Positions 1-20,233 of a stretch of DNA of 21,446 nucleotides are shown piece after piece. The stretch spans positions 1 to 21,446 of the IMG/VR virus record IMGVR_UViG_3300044627_004168. One strand, written 5' to 3'. Every line of letters starts with the position of its first letter. The first letter of the stretch is position 1. A program made the translations under genes and the position numbers. The notes beneath the pieces are model-generated. The model ran no database searches and was not told where the DNA came from. It saw only the letters and a list, made by a program, of their open reading frames with translations. The DNA comes from a virus.

Positions 1-504
1 GCCGCCGTCCTCCGGCTGCGCAGCATCCCCCGGGGAAGAAGAAGAATTTCTATCTCCTCTATCTCCTCTCTCTAGGGCGCGCGGCGCCCCTGCTGGGGGC
101 GCCATGCGCCCCGAGCGGGGGCGCGTCGCGCCCCCAGCGGGGGCGCTACGCGCCCCCGCCTTGTCGACCTGGTGCCGAACCGTGGTCAAAGCCCGTGATT
201 TCGCGGCTTGCGAGAACCGTCGCTCCCATCCGGGGATCGCCACAGTTCCGCTCTCCGCGTCGATCACGAGCCAGCCCACGGCCTCGACCTCCCTCCAGAA
301 CTCCTCGTCGCCCCCGCAGAGCCTCCCCAGGAGCCGGATCGACATCCGGGCCGTCCCGTCGGAGCTGTTCAGGGCCGCCCACCCCCAGAGCATCAGGAGC
401 CGGCCGACGACCTGGTCGGGGGCGAGCCCCGTCCGGTCGACCAGCTCGAGGACCTCCGGCTTCTGGGGGAGACAGACATCGTAGGGAATCCATTCACCGG
501 CCAT
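1..504 (-). CDS. Replication-initiator-like protein, N-terminal part (runs off the left edge)
   Basis: An open frame of 168 codons starts at ATG 504 and runs off the window without a stop. The product begins MAGEWIPYDVCLPQKPEV and continues with LLMLWGWAAL, a segment around WREVEAVGWLVI, and IPGWERRFSQAAKSRA. This style is seen at the N-terminus of phage replisome-organiser or DnaD-like initiators, which carry a winged-helix DNA-binding domain. From about residue 115 the sequence becomes a low-complexity linker (Ala/Gly/Arg/Pro, then RGDRGD, then SSSS). That linker is encoded by the 22-bp DNA repeats and the purine tract described separately. The gene is last in the early operon of ATPase, SSB-like and nuclease-like genes, 3 nt after the preceding stop, which fits a replication role. 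No catalytic motif is visible, and the initiator call rests on style and context. The C-terminal half is outside the window. Confidence 0.55.
   Translation of the reverse strand, partial: MAGEWIPYDVCLPQKPEVLELVDRTGLAPDQVVGRLLMLWGWAALNSSDGTARMSIRLLGRLCGGDEEFWREVEAVGWLVIDAESGTVAIPGWERRFSQAAKSRALTTVRHQVDKAGARSAPAGGATRPRSGRMAPPAGAPRALERGDRGDRNSSSSPGDAAQPEDGG
35..72. other. Purine/pyrimidine-asymmetric, low-GC tract next to the tandem palindromes (possible DNA-unwinding element)
   Basis: The plus strand reads GAAGAAGAAGAATTTC and then almost only C and T, with the 9-bp unit CTATCTCCT twice in tandem (50-58, 59-67). It is the most AT-rich short stretch of this gene and directly follows the palindromic repeats in the direction of the gene. 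In lambda, an AT-rich strand-asymmetric tract in the same relative place is where the origin melts. The unwinding role here is inference. Confidence 0.4.
73..160. repeat. Four tandem 22-bp palindromic repeats inside the replication gene (candidate origin iterons)
   Basis: Four head-to-tail units of exactly 22 bp lie at 73-94, 95-116, 117-138 and 139-160. Each is built as GGGGGCGC-N3-GCGCCCCC plus a 3-nt linker. Units 117-138 and 139-160 have perfect 8-bp arms. Unit 95-116 has 7 bp and unit 73-94 about 6 bp. The centres vary (GCG, CAT, GTC, TAC) while the arms are kept. The period is not a multiple of 3, so successive units encode different amino acids, and the conservation is at the DNA level. 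The spacing is close to two helical turns, as expected for initiator-binding iterons. An inserted palindromic element that later duplicated is an alternative. Confidence 0.7.
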
Positions 505-1425: not shown

Positions 1426-1914
1426 TCAAAATGGAATGTCGTCTTCCGGCGGCCGCGAGACGGCGTCGGCCTTCTTCGTGGCGGTCCTGGCGGCCGGCTT
1501 CGCTGCCGGCTTCGCTGCCGCCGGCTCGGCCGCCTGGTGGAACTCGCCCACGTTCGCGAATAGCCCGCCCTTCGTGCCGGTGCCGTGCCAGATCCTCGCC
1601 GCGACTCGCCGGCCGACGACGCCGTCGCCGCCGGCCAGGATCGCGTCGCGGAGCTGGCCGCCGGTCATCCCGAGGACCCTCGCGAGCGAGCCGGCGATCG
1701 TCGCGAACGACTTCGCGGTCGTCGGCGGGTTCGCCTTGACCCAGTAGTAGCGGGCGTCGTCGTGGACGAGCGTGACGGAGAGCCGCCCGTCCGCGATCTC
1801 GGCCGCCTTGATCGTGAAGGCGTGGTGACCCTCGCCGATCGTCTCCCGCTCGGCCCGGACATCCCGCTCGAAGTCGTCGGTCCCCTCGTCCAGCATGTCA
1901 AAAGCATCAGCCAT
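1426..1914 (-). CDS. Single-stranded-DNA-binding-like protein with acidic DDIPF tail (DUF669-like)
   Basis: The 162-aa product starts at ATG 1914 inside the end of the ATPase gene (8-nt overlap), so the two are translationally coupled. Residues 25-125 form a beta-rich domain with segments SVTLVHDDARYYWVKANPP, ARVLGMTGGQLRDAILAGG and VVGRRVAARIWHG, similar in layout to phage DUF669 proteins. An Ala/Lys/Pro linker follows (AAAKPAAKPAARTATKK). The C-terminus is EDDIPF, the acidic tip by which bacterial SSB recruits partner proteins. Together with the Sak4-like ATPase next door this suggests an ssDNA-binding partner in phage recombination or replication. The tail is seen directly. The OB-like fold and partner binding are inference. 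Confidence 0.7.
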   Translation of the reverse strand: MADAFDMLDEGTDDFERDVRAERETIGEGHHAFTIKAAEIADGRLSVTLVHDDARYYWVKANPPTTAKSFATIAGSLARVLGMTGGQLRDAILAGGDGVVGRRVAARIWHGTGTKGGLFANVGEFHQAAEPAAAKPAAKPAARTATKKADAVSRPPEDDIPF

Positions 1915-2857
1915 CGGTGACGGTCTCCTGGGTAGTGGGTTCGATCTCCTCGTGCCGGGCGTTTGCCTCGTCGGTCAACTGCGACCAGTCGTCATCGGAA
2001 AGCCGCCCTTCGGATAGGGCCTTGTCGATCCCGTCGACGACCTTCCCTAAATCCTTCACCGTGGCGGCCGCGGCGATGTGCTTCCGGACGATCTCGACCA
2101 GATCGGCCCCGGAGGCCCGCGTCGGTTTGGTCGCCGGCGCCTTCACCGGCTGGGCCGCCGGCGGGGCCAACGGCGTCGGAGTCCCGTCGGCCAGCCAGGC
2201 GGCGAGCTGCCGCCCGAAGTCCTCGCCCGGCTTCTCCAGGAGCTTGTCCTGGAACTTCCCGGTCCGGTCCTTGATCACGTTCGCGATGTGGTCCGTCGAG
2301 ATCTCGACCAGGAGGTCGAATTCGTACTCGACGCCCTTCCCCTGCTCGGGAGCCAGGCCGACCCGCTGCGGGGTCTTCTTGCCCCGCCCGTCGTCGACGG
2401 TCGTCCACTCGGTTTTCGACCGCATGGTCCCGATAACGTGCCCGGGGAACCCGAGGATCGCGGCGACGAGCTTCCGCTGGAGCGGCGTCCCCTCCGACCA
2501 GGCCGACCATGTGTTCCCCCGGTACTTCGCCTTCGCGAGCTTCTCGACCTCCTCGCACAGGCTTTGCCAGCCGTGGGAGAGCGAGTCGATCACGAGGACC
2601 GCGTACCCGGCCTCTCCCGCCTCGTGGATCGCGGCGACGTAGCCCTCGATCGTGAGGTCCCGCAGCTCGAGGACGTCGAAGTCGAACCGGTCCGAATACT
2701 TCGACGCGGAGCCGCGTTCCGTGTCGATCACGGCGATCGGGCCGCCGAGGCCCGTCCCCACCCGCAGGGCCGAGAACGTCTTCCCGGCGCCGCTCGGCCC
2801 GAAGAAGGCCGCCCGCAGTTTCGCGGCCGCCTTCGTTGCTTTCTTGAATCCTGCCAT
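1907..2857 (-). CDS. Sak4-like phage AAA/RecA-type ATPase
   Basis: The product is 316 aa. Start ATG 2857 is chosen because GGAGGG lies about 6-7 nt upstream. The open frame continues further upstream, but that part reads as non-protein-like sequence. Walker A is GPSGAGKT (residues 20-27), with IDTERGS at 44-50. Walker B is YAVLVIDSLSH with Asp91. The sequence GTMRSKTEW fits the polar motif seen in phage nucleotide-binding proteins of this type. The C-terminal third is a Pro/Ala linker followed by a helical segment. Such single-domain RecA-like ATPases (Sak4 group, AAA_24) act with an SSB-like partner in single-strand annealing. The next gene supplies such a partner in an 8-nt overlap. The family assignment is firm at the ATPase level and less so at the Sak4 level. 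Confidence 0.85.
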   Translation of the reverse strand: MAGFKKATKAAAKLRAAFFGPSGAGKTFSALRVGTGLGGPIAVIDTERGSASKYSDRFDFDVLELRDLTIEGYVAAIHEAGEAGYAVLVIDSLSHGWQSLCEEVEKLAKAKYRGNTWSAWSEGTPLQRKLVAAILGFPGHVIGTMRSKTEWTTVDDGRGKKTPQRVGLAPEQGKGVEYEFDLLVEISTDHIANVIKDRTGKFQDKLLEKPGEDFGRQLAAWLADGTPTPLAPPAAQPVKAPATKPTRASGADLVEIVRKHIAAAATVKDLGKVVDGIDKALSEGRLSDDDWSQLTDEANARHEEIEPTTQETVTDG

Positions 2858-4395: not shown

Positions 4396-5328
4396 ATGTT
4401 CCGTCGGTCCGGTCCTGCCACGCTCGGGGAGTATGCCCGCGAATACGGGCTCCTTCGGGACGTTCGCCCCGAGACTCTCCGCCAGTATCAGATCGCCGCC
4501 GACGCCTTCGAGAGATGGGCCGGCGCCGCCGTGCCGCTCGAGCAGCTCGACGAGCGGAGCGTCTCGGAATTCCTCCGCGACTACTCCGGCCAGGTCGCCG
4601 CGTCGACGGTCCGGAGCAAACGGAACCAGATCCTCGCCCTCTGGCGGGCGGCCGCCGAGGACGGATTCTGTGATCCCCCGACCCGCCGGGTCCGGGCCGC
4701 CCGGGTCCCGGTCGCCCCCGTCGAGGCCTGGGAGCGGTCGGAGGTCGAGCTGCTCCTCGAGGCCGCGGCCCGGCTCCCCCGCCGCCACCCCTGCGGCCTC
4801 CGGCGGTCGGCCTGGTTCGACCTGGCGATCCGTGTCGCCTGGGATTCGGGCCTCCGATGGGGAGACCTGGTTGCCCTGCCGGTCGCCGCGATCCGGCCCG
4901 ACGGGACGGCCTCGGTCGTCCAGAGCAAAACCGGCCGGCCGGCCGTGTTCCGCCTCTCTCCGGGGACGATGGAGGCCCTGCGGGCCAGCCTCGCGGCCTG
5001 CCCCCGGGCGATCGTCTGCCCGTGGCCGGCCAGCCACGAGACATTCCTCGCCCAGGTTCGCCGGCTCGTCCTGCGGGCCGGCGTCCGGGCCGGAACCTGG
5101 AAATGGATCCGCCGGGGCTCGGGGACCGACGTCGAGGTCCAGAGGGGCGGCGCCGGTCATCTCCATCTGGGGAACACCCGAGCCGTCTTCGACCGACACT
5201 ACGGGAGCCAGGCGATCATCGGCCGGGCGACCCCGGCGCCGCGCGAGCTGCTCGTCGAGGCCCTCGCCCGGAGGCCGGCGGCCCCGGCGGAGAGCCCGCC
5301 GGGGGCCGGCCGGTCCGGTCAGCGGTAA
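4396..5328 (+). CDS. int: Tyrosine recombinase (phage integrase)
   Basis: The product is 310 aa and this is the only convincing plus-strand gene. Residues 8-92 form a SAM-like core-binding domain (LGEYAREYGLLRDVRPETLR, then a helix around STVRSKRNQILALWRAA). The catalytic domain has Arg154 in SGLRWGDLVAL, Lys178 in QSKTGR, and Arg239 or Arg240 in KWIRRGSG. It also has GHLHLGN (250s) and the nucleophile Tyr269 in FDRHYG. Two usual histidines differ. The HxxR box reads KWIR, and the LGH position reads LGN260. No strong ribosome site precedes ATG 4396. The last 10 bp overlap the convergent exported-protein gene. Its position 127 bp from the tRNA-derived core fits integration at tRNA-Arg. Activity is not certain given the two substitutions. 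Confidence 0.9.
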   Translation: MFRRSGPATLGEYAREYGLLRDVRPETLRQYQIAADAFERWAGAAVPLEQLDERSVSEFLRDYSGQVAASTVRSKRNQILALWRAAAEDGFCDPPTRRVRAARVPVAPVEAWERSEVELLLEAAARLPRRHPCGLRRSAWFDLAIRVAWDSGLRWGDLVALPVAAIRPDGTASVVQSKTGRPAVFRLSPGTMEALRASLAACPRAIVCPWPASHETFLAQVRRLVLRAGVRAGTWKWIRRGSGTDVEVQRGGAGHLHLGNTRAVFDRHYGSQAIIGRATPAPRELLVEALARRPAAPAESPPGAGRSGQR

Positions 5329-18861: not shown

Positions 18862-19130
18862 CACCACCCCCTAGCGTTGTCGACCAGCGGATATCCGTCG
18901 TCCCCGATCGCCGGGCCACGCGCGGCCCGGTGATCCGATGTCGGCTCGGCCGGCGCGGGCTCGGCCACGAGCGCGACCCAGAGGAGGCTCTTCGCGAACT
19001 TCGCGATCATCCGCAGGACCGGCCGGTCGGGCTGCGGCTGCGGGCCGGGCATGGGGCTCGACGGGCTCGAGGCGAGCCAGTAGCCGGCCGCCAGGCAGAC
19101 GACGACGATCGCGACGTTCTTCCGGTCCAT
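18861..19130 (-). CDS. Small membrane protein (89 aa)
   Basis: Of two adjacent ATGs the second (19130) has GGAGG at 5 nt and is chosen. The gene is coupled to the peptidase stop. It has a hydrophobic segment at about residues 6-20 (VAIVVVCLAAGYWLA), a Pro-rich stretch (SPSSPMPGPQPQPDRP), a second weaker helix (MIAKFAKSLLWVALVA) and an acidic C-terminus. No family is recognised. It could be a partner of the peptidase or part of a lysis set. Confidence 0.65.
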   Translation of the reverse strand: MDRKNVAIVVVCLAAGYWLASSPSSPMPGPQPQPDRPVLRMIAKFAKSLLWVALVAEPAPAEPTSDHRAARGPAIGDDGYPLVDNARGW

Positions 19131-20233
19131 CATTTCCTCCGCTCCTCGGTCGGGGCCGGCATCAGCCAGCCGCCGTTATTCAGGTCGCGCCAGCCGAACC
19201 CCTGGACGGAGCCGACGGCGAACGAGTCTTTTTGCGAGATCATCCGCTCCACGATCGGCCGCGAGACCCAGAACGACCCCTCGGGCATATCCTCCGGCCA
19301 CTTCGGGCCGGAGATCCATCGCGGCCCCCACGAGTTGAGGCAGAGCAAGCCATCGGACGGGCTCCCGTTCTTCTGGTAGCGGACGGCGATGAATGCCATC
19401 TCATGAGCCCAGGTCCCCTCGGCCCTCGCGTAGCCGTGGGCGTCCCGCGTGTTCGAGAATCCCTGCATCGACGCGACCGCGATCGGGAACCCCGCCTCGA
19501 GGGCTGAACAGGCCTCCCCCCAGGTCGTGACCATCGCGACGTAGCCGGCGGGATGCTTCTTCGCCGCCTCGTCGAGCCGGCCGCCGTCACCCTGCCCGCC
19601 GCAGCCGTACGCGCCCCACTGTTTCGCGCGGTCCGCGGAGTAGGCCCGGAGGTCGTGGCCGGCGACGTTCGCCCGGTAGACGACCCCCCAGTCCCGCACC
19701 CAGCGCGCCGCGGCGGCGCCGTAGGATCCATCGGACCATCCGCCGACGGGGGCCTTGCCGTCCCCCGGCCGGCCCCTGGCCTCGACCCGCGAGCCGCCGT
19801 AGATCGCCTCGGTCGACGGGAACGGCGGCGGCTGGGCGAGCCGGCCGGTTTCCCAGTCGACGGCCTGGGCGACGAAAATCGCGTGAGCCCAGCCCCAGGA
19901 AACACAGTCCCCAATGCCCTGCCGCTCGACGACGAATGGCCGGCCGTAGAGGGCCTGGTGGGCTTTGTAGGCCGCCCGATACGGGAACGTGTCGACCCCC
20001 TTCGCCTGGGCGACGGTATCGGCCCCGGCCTGGCGGAACATCGGCTCCGGCAGCTCCGCGAGGAACTGCTCGACGCCGCGCGGGTCCGGCCGGTAGCCGT
20101 AGTTCGTCTGGCCGTCGAGCCAGCCGGTCGGCTGCGGTCCCCGGCCGAGGCCGGCGACGATCGCCGCGGCCGCCAGGCCGAGGAGGCCGACGACCGCCAG
20201 AAACCGAACGTGTCGGAGGTTAGCGGGAGGCAT
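19130..20233 (-). CDS. Papain-like (C1) cysteine peptidase with membrane anchor
   Basis: The product is 367 aa. ATG 20233 overlaps the end of the previous gene. A hydrophobic anchor or uncleaved signal lies at residues 9-30 (VRFLAVVGLLGLAAAAIVAG). The catalytic set is complete: Gln105 and Cys110 in QGIGDCVSWGWAH, His277 in TWAHEMAFIAV, and Asn300 in LLCLNSWGPRW, which matches the papain NSWG box. An insert at about residues 150-215 carries CGG and other Gly-rich turns. It lies between portal-side genes and the capsid gene, where a prohead protease normally is, but the anchor and membrane neighbours point as well to envelope work such as lysis. The enzyme class is firm and the role is not. Confidence 0.85.
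   Translation of the reverse strand: MPPANLRHVRFLAVVGLLGLAAAAIVAGLGRGPQPTGWLDGQTNYGYRPDPRGVEQFLAELPEPMFRQAGADTVAQAKGVDTFPYRAAYKAHQALYGRPFVVERQGIGDCVSWGWAHAIFVAQAVDWETGRLAQPPPFPSTEAIYGGSRVEARGRPGDGKAPVGGWSDGSYGAAAARWVRDWGVVYRANVAGHDLRAYSADRAKQWGAYGCGGQGDGGRLDEAAKKHPAGYVAMVTTWGEACSALEAGFPIAVASMQGFSNTRDAHGYARAEGTWAHEMAFIAVRYQKNGSPSDGLLCLNSWGPRWISGPKWPEDMPEGSFWVSRPIVERMISQKDSFAVGSVQGFGWRDLNNGGWLMPAPTEERRK

Follow-up and report, generated by a model that had tools for sequence, protein, structure and literature searches.

A probable replication origin of the lambda plan inside a phage initiator gene of the PHROG 2509 group

The virus fragment IMGVR_UViG_3300044627_004168 (21,446 bp, analysed over its whole length and called the window below) begins within a minus-strand replication-initiator gene that its left end truncates. 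An array of palindromic units lies within the coding sequence of this gene, in the linker that follows the initiator's N-terminal domain, and is succeeded by a tract of low duplex stability. Judged from sequence comparisons, the array and tract are very probably the replication origin of the phage, arranged on the plan of phage lambda and embedded in the gene of its own initiator. In the proposed mechanism, initiator dimers would bind the 22-bp palindromic iterons through the N-terminal domain. Half-sites would lie about 11 bp apart and units two helical turns apart, a spacing that would place the units on one face of the DNA. The bound initiators would then form an O-some-like complex and so open the readily melted purine/pyrimidine tract next to the array, where the C-terminal half of the initiator may help to load the replicative helicase.

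The original prediction, made from the window alone, described four tandem 22-bp palindromic units inside an initiator-like gene, and exact cores with starts 22 bp apart were indeed found. The inner form GGGCGCNNNGCGCCC (GGGCGC-NNN-GCGCCC) occurs exactly at positions 75, 97, 119 and 141 only. The form GGGGGCGCNNNGCGCCCCC is matched without mismatch by units 1 and 2, with one mismatch by unit 3 and with three by unit 4 (Table 1), and no further site with three or fewer mismatches is present in the 21,446 bp. The period was also said to be out of step with the codons; this held, as unit starts occupy all three reading frames about equally in the arm alleles A and B described below. Random recodings of the same peptide, 2,000 per gene, were made with the codon usage of the phage itself. 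In locus L005, a near-identical, full-length version of the window gene, complementarity holds for 27 of 28 arm pairs, against a mean of 18.1 and a maximum of 24 among the recodings. For allele B, the observed score was reached in none of the 2,000 recodings of L034 and in one of the 2,000 of L046. The encoded peptide thus does not account for the array.

The tract directly follows the array in the direction of the gene (GAGAGAGGAGATAGAGGAGATAGAAATTCTTCTTCTTC, window 72-35). Between positions 35 and 72 it is asymmetric in purines and pyrimidines and contains about 39% G+C (15 of 38 bases), compared with about 68% for the contig. The asymmetry and low G+C content were anticipated correctly in the original prediction; a strongly AT-rich character was not found, the tract being low in GC and rich in purines instead. 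Over the entire contig, duplex stability is lowest in the overlapping 38-bp stretch at 38-75, with a value of -44.0 kcal/mol against a mean of -60.3 (standard deviation 3.8). Homologous loci numbering 80 were fetched, and codon choice in the tract was counted over 62 distinct homologous genes, with the tract motif recognized in 61 of the 62. Within the tract, AGA encodes arginine in 218 of 218 cases, but in the remainder of these genes in only 10 of 1,557; for asparagine, AAT accounts for 47 of 47 cases in the tract and 29 of 220 outside it. Together, the recoding test and the AGA and AAT bias argue that the array and the tract are each kept as DNA.

All complete members of this family retain two to four recognizable units, with the shared purine tract after them. 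Three arm alleles were distinguished: A (GGGCGC/GCGCCC), B (GTGCGC/GCGCAC) and C (ACGCGC/GCGCGT), and both arms change jointly from one allele to another. The 22-bp spacing was observed in 71 of 71 cases for allele A, 41 of 41 for allele B and 21 of 22 for allele C. Exact palindromes of the three types were found 147 times inside the gene and not once in about 296 kb of flanking sequence. The encoded linker peptides differ from allele to allele while the array persists, which is the behaviour expected of an element kept as DNA, and none of the homologues compared has the linker without the repeats. Neither the window nor the fetched flanks contain another cluster of such repeats that would indicate an origin elsewhere. 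GC skew was uninformative, the window being a fragment with nearly all genes on one strand.

In lambda, four inverted-repeat iterons are bound by O dimers and are followed by a 40-bp tract that opens, all inside gene O, and the origin of Stx phages contains six iterons (PMC5043065, PMC7466680). In the annotated lambda sequence, the four iterons occupy O codons 117-145 and precede the low-GC tract. The predicted resemblance to this plan was confirmed by comparison with lambda: in both systems, inverted-repeat iterons lie in the initiator linker (at about codons 115-145) and a strand-asymmetric, low-GC, easily unwound tract comes immediately after them, within the initiator's own gene. A spacing of about 20-24 bp and a variable number of iterons among relatives are also shared with lambda and Stx phages (PMC7466680, PMC5043065). 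The window family differs from lambda in its strict 22-bp spacing, its GC-only arms and its AGA-marked tract. The origin plan is thus the same, but by sequence the initiator does not belong to the lambda O family (PF04492). Lambda O itself matches PF04492 at 5.7e-36; the Pfam search gave no match to this family (Phage_rep_O) or to any other for the window family, and no homology between the DNA-binding domain and lambda O was detectable (hhalign probability of about 1% or less). By analogy, the initiator may work like lambda O without being a recognizable member of its family. Iteron plasmids such as P1, F and RK2 likewise have phased repeats beside a melting tract (PMC5043065), but the repeats of the window are palindromes inside the initiator gene.

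The description of the gene as initiator-like was supported by the PHROG 2509 profile, which matched residues 1-120 of the window gene (E = 2.9e-22), significantly over the N-terminal domain, and does not cover the C-terminal half of the initiator. PHROG 9474 was also matched by the 168 codons present, and both groups are labelled 'replication initiation protein'. The description needs one correction, in that the contig edge truncates the gene; the complete gene has 301 codons in three close relatives, L005-L007. An AlphaFold2 model predicted a winged-helix-like N-terminal domain composed of helices at residues 16-25, 29-46, 56-63 and 67-76 and strands at 51-53, 80-82 and 87-89, with a predicted local distance difference test score of about 84-94 across most of residues 11-90. 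The linker was modelled very poorly and global confidence was low. A Foldseek comparison of the N-terminal domain with the PDB returned weak matches of the winged-helix type, none at E ≤ 0.001, and profile searches of PDB sequences with the initiator gave no match. The domain is followed by a basic helix (codons 99-119) in which A101, K102, R104 and R110 are invariant, with K102, R104 and R110 invariant across the window family.

Table 1. Features of the initiator gene and its embedded array in the window
Feature	Position	Strand	Remarks
Replication-initiator gene	1..504	-	ATG at 504; 168 codons before the contig end, gene truncated; PHROG 2509/9474
Predicted winged-helix-like N-terminal domain, codons 1-98	211..504	-	AlphaFold2 model
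Basic helix, codons 99-119	148..210	-	Low-confidence model; here T107/H111 with GCGCCC half-sites
Palindromic unit 1 (candidate iteron), GGGGGCGC-TAC-GCGCCCCC	139..157	.	Sequence match
Palindromic unit 2 (candidate iteron), GGGGGCGC-GTC-GCGCCCCC	117..135	.	Sequence match
Palindromic unit 3 (candidate iteron), GGGGGCGC-CAT-GCGCCCCG	95..113	.	Sequence match
Palindromic unit 4 (candidate iteron), outer bases degenerate; core GGGCGC-GCG-GCGCCC exact at 75-89	73..91	.	
Purine tract then pyrimidine tract, candidate DNA-unwinding element	34..75	-	Coding strand ...GAGAGAGGAGATAGAGGAGATAGAAATTCTTCTTCTTCC; kept in family

The end of the helix (codons 99-119) and the repeats have been replaced jointly between genes that are otherwise nearly identical. 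Between L005, of allele A, and L034, of allele B, identity is 93% in the first 300 bp and about 97% in the last 330 bp, but falls to 33-53% in the intervening cassette; similarly, L010 (allele A) and L039 (allele B) are 96% identical over the first 300 bp. At least two allele changes are necessary for three alleles, and nine were required on the tree of codons 1-98 and 15 on the tree of the C-terminal part. Within the 62 genes, residues 107 and 111 follow the allele with no exception: A, S, T or G at 107 with H at 111 in allele A, H with A in allele B, and E with N in allele C. When distant initiators are included, the two residues agree with the half-site in 390 of 390 genes of a redundant set, with the further pairs T/V (CGTTA) and D/K (CGGAC or GTGAC). 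D/K alone is associated with two half-site types, which are related to each other. A divergent lineage (L274-L277, about 65-67% domain identity) has A107/H111 with GCGCCC, in agreement with the same rule. These patterns suggest that the choice of half-site depends on helix 99-119, residues 107 and 111 being its likely specificity positions. A broader reading, to which an even chance is given, is that the origin in the PHROG 2509 superfamily is a portable specificity cassette of about 130 bp, in which residues 107 and 111 would specify the outer half-site bases by a simple code: T/V for GTTAC, D/K for GGAC or GTGAC, H/A for GCGCAC, A, S or T with H for GCGCCC, and E/N for GCGCGT. Because the helix end and its cognate iterons are contiguous, a single exchange would swap both reader and sites.

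More distant relatives, reached by tblastn and further scans, include Rac YdaU, epsilon15 p23, Xanthomonas CP2, Pseudomonas VW-6S, E. coli TL-2011b and Vibrio phages; the first five resemble the window gene in having a homologous N-terminal domain. In these distant initiators, repeated half-sites directly follow the same helix and are followed in turn by a purine tract, for example AGAGGAAGAGGAAGAGGAAGATATAAA. The PHROG 2509/9474 initiators have the AK.RA....R helix, palindromic half-sites and the purine tract at the same place as the window family, and differ from it in half-sites of GCGTTAC, GCGGAC or GTGAC. The earlier description of arms made only of G and C, in contrast to known iterons, therefore fits this allele but not the others, as GCGTTAC occurs in the Rac and Pseudomonas relatives and GCGGAC in epsilon15. 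Among 80 representatives chosen at 90% identity, 11 or more consecutive purines were found in the linker after the DNA-binding domain in 67, versus 7 of 334 control windows, and a 6-mer was present at least three times in the linker in 68, versus 78 of 492 controls.

The C-terminal half of these proteins appears from sequence to undergo modular swapping. The DnaT-type domain PF17948 was matched by Pfam in epsilon15, VW-6S, TL-2011b and a fecal phage but not in the window family, L005 and L084 having been searched. It was also observed (L106, L107, L110, L111) that PF17948 follows the shared DNA-binding domain in some phages, with other C-terminal domains taking its place elsewhere. A helicase loader gene (P or DnaC-like) adjoins the initiator genes of Rac (YdaU), PAN70 and VW-6S. 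In Rac (L104), GTAACGC/GCGTTAC palindromes and a AGAGGAAGAGGAAGAGGAAGATATAAAT tract lie inside ydaU (1228-2016), where the tract reads AGAGGAAG. Rac is described as having an active origin, oriJ (PMC3945230), and the passages found in Rac papers mentioning oriJ do not give its position; the ydaU array and tract are predicted here as its candidate site. In the open-licence passages retrieved, no description of such arrays was found for YdaU, for epsilon15 or for phage initiators of the DnaT type. An assignment of YdaU to DUF1376 had no Pfam match in its support and is not claimed.

The strongest of the other explanations, though an improbable one, is that the palindromes are operators at which the initiator represses its own transcription as a roadblock inside the gene, with replication starting elsewhere. 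A dimeric winged-helix-like protein on spaced palindromes would give the same picture, the symmetry resembles that of a binding site, and a protein bound within the gene could repress it. This explanation does not account for the tract, which has the weakest duplex in the contig, is marked by AGA without exception and abuts the last half-site in all groups; moreover, the array lies far inside the coding sequence and not close to a promoter. Hairpins in RNA or single-stranded DNA (an attenuator, an mRNA stability element or a cruciform signal) are less probable still. The strand does fold very stably as DNA (-53.1 kcal/mol, z = -6.9), but arm mismatches in distinct units comprise ten A.C and one G.T, although the numbers are small, and an RNA hairpin should tolerate G.U rather than A.C. 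Duplex DNA is favoured because of this mismatch pattern, on which the RNA-hairpin reading was rejected; in addition, no U run follows the palindromes, and neither exact 22-bp phasing nor a match between half-site and residues is expected of an RNA element. The remaining explanation is an artefact of low complexity, or a repeat at the protein level, within a linker that is GC-rich and disordered; the greater frequency of palindromes at high GC and the very low confidence of the linker model could speak for it. This explanation is refuted by the recodings, which never reach the allele A score, by the use of all three frames, by the confinement of the palindromes to the gene and by AT-containing alleles at the same place in phages of 50% GC.

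Several observations count against an embedded origin read by helix 99-119. The contig is a fragment, so the origin could lie elsewhere in the phage genome. Among the downstream open reading frames (ORFs) of L012, no helicase loader was recognized by Pfam beside the window-family gene, and the array is weak (fewer than three copies) in 12 of the 80 representatives. The helix is modelled at low confidence, and in the predicted fold the class-specific residues fall outside the canonical wing/H3 position. As residues 107 and 111 are encoded beside the repeats, linkage alone could also produce part of their correlation with the half-site, but the independent swaps and the distant groups disfavour linkage as the sole cause.

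An AAA_24 ATPase (PF13479, 2.8e-25; window 1907-2857, minus strand), with a weak Sak4-like match to PHROG 1366, lies a few genes upstream of the initiator and is a probable recombination or annealing protein. By eye, an ORF on the opposite strand (4396-5328, plus) resembles a tyrosine recombinase/integrase, and a minus-strand ORF (19130-20233) a papain-type cysteine peptidase. The integrase-like ORF would suggest a temperate phage, yet a host search via prophage relatives found no initiator homologue in the 84,980 bacterial and archaeal genomes scanned. Downstream of the initiator in L012 are an ORF without assignment, a RusA Holliday-junction resolvase (4488-4925; PF05866, 4.9e-21) and a helix-turn-helix-like ORF.

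Embedded origins of the lambda type are already known. Relative to the open-licence literature searched, novelty lies in the occurrence of embedded arrays among PHROG 2509 initiators and in their GC-only alleles, in the exchange of helix end and iterons as one unit, and in the two-residue code proposed here. The arrangement offers a route, from sequence only, to replication origins in many uncultured phages and prophages, and proposes a DNA-binding helix and specificity residues for a large family annotated as 'replication initiation protein' or 'hypothetical'. The joint replacement of an altered helix and altered sites would represent natural swaps of origin specificity. If the cassette reading is true, the superfamily spans uncultured GC-rich phages to the Rac prophage of E. 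coli, and the Rac origin oriJ would lie inside ydaU, as the present analysis predicts.
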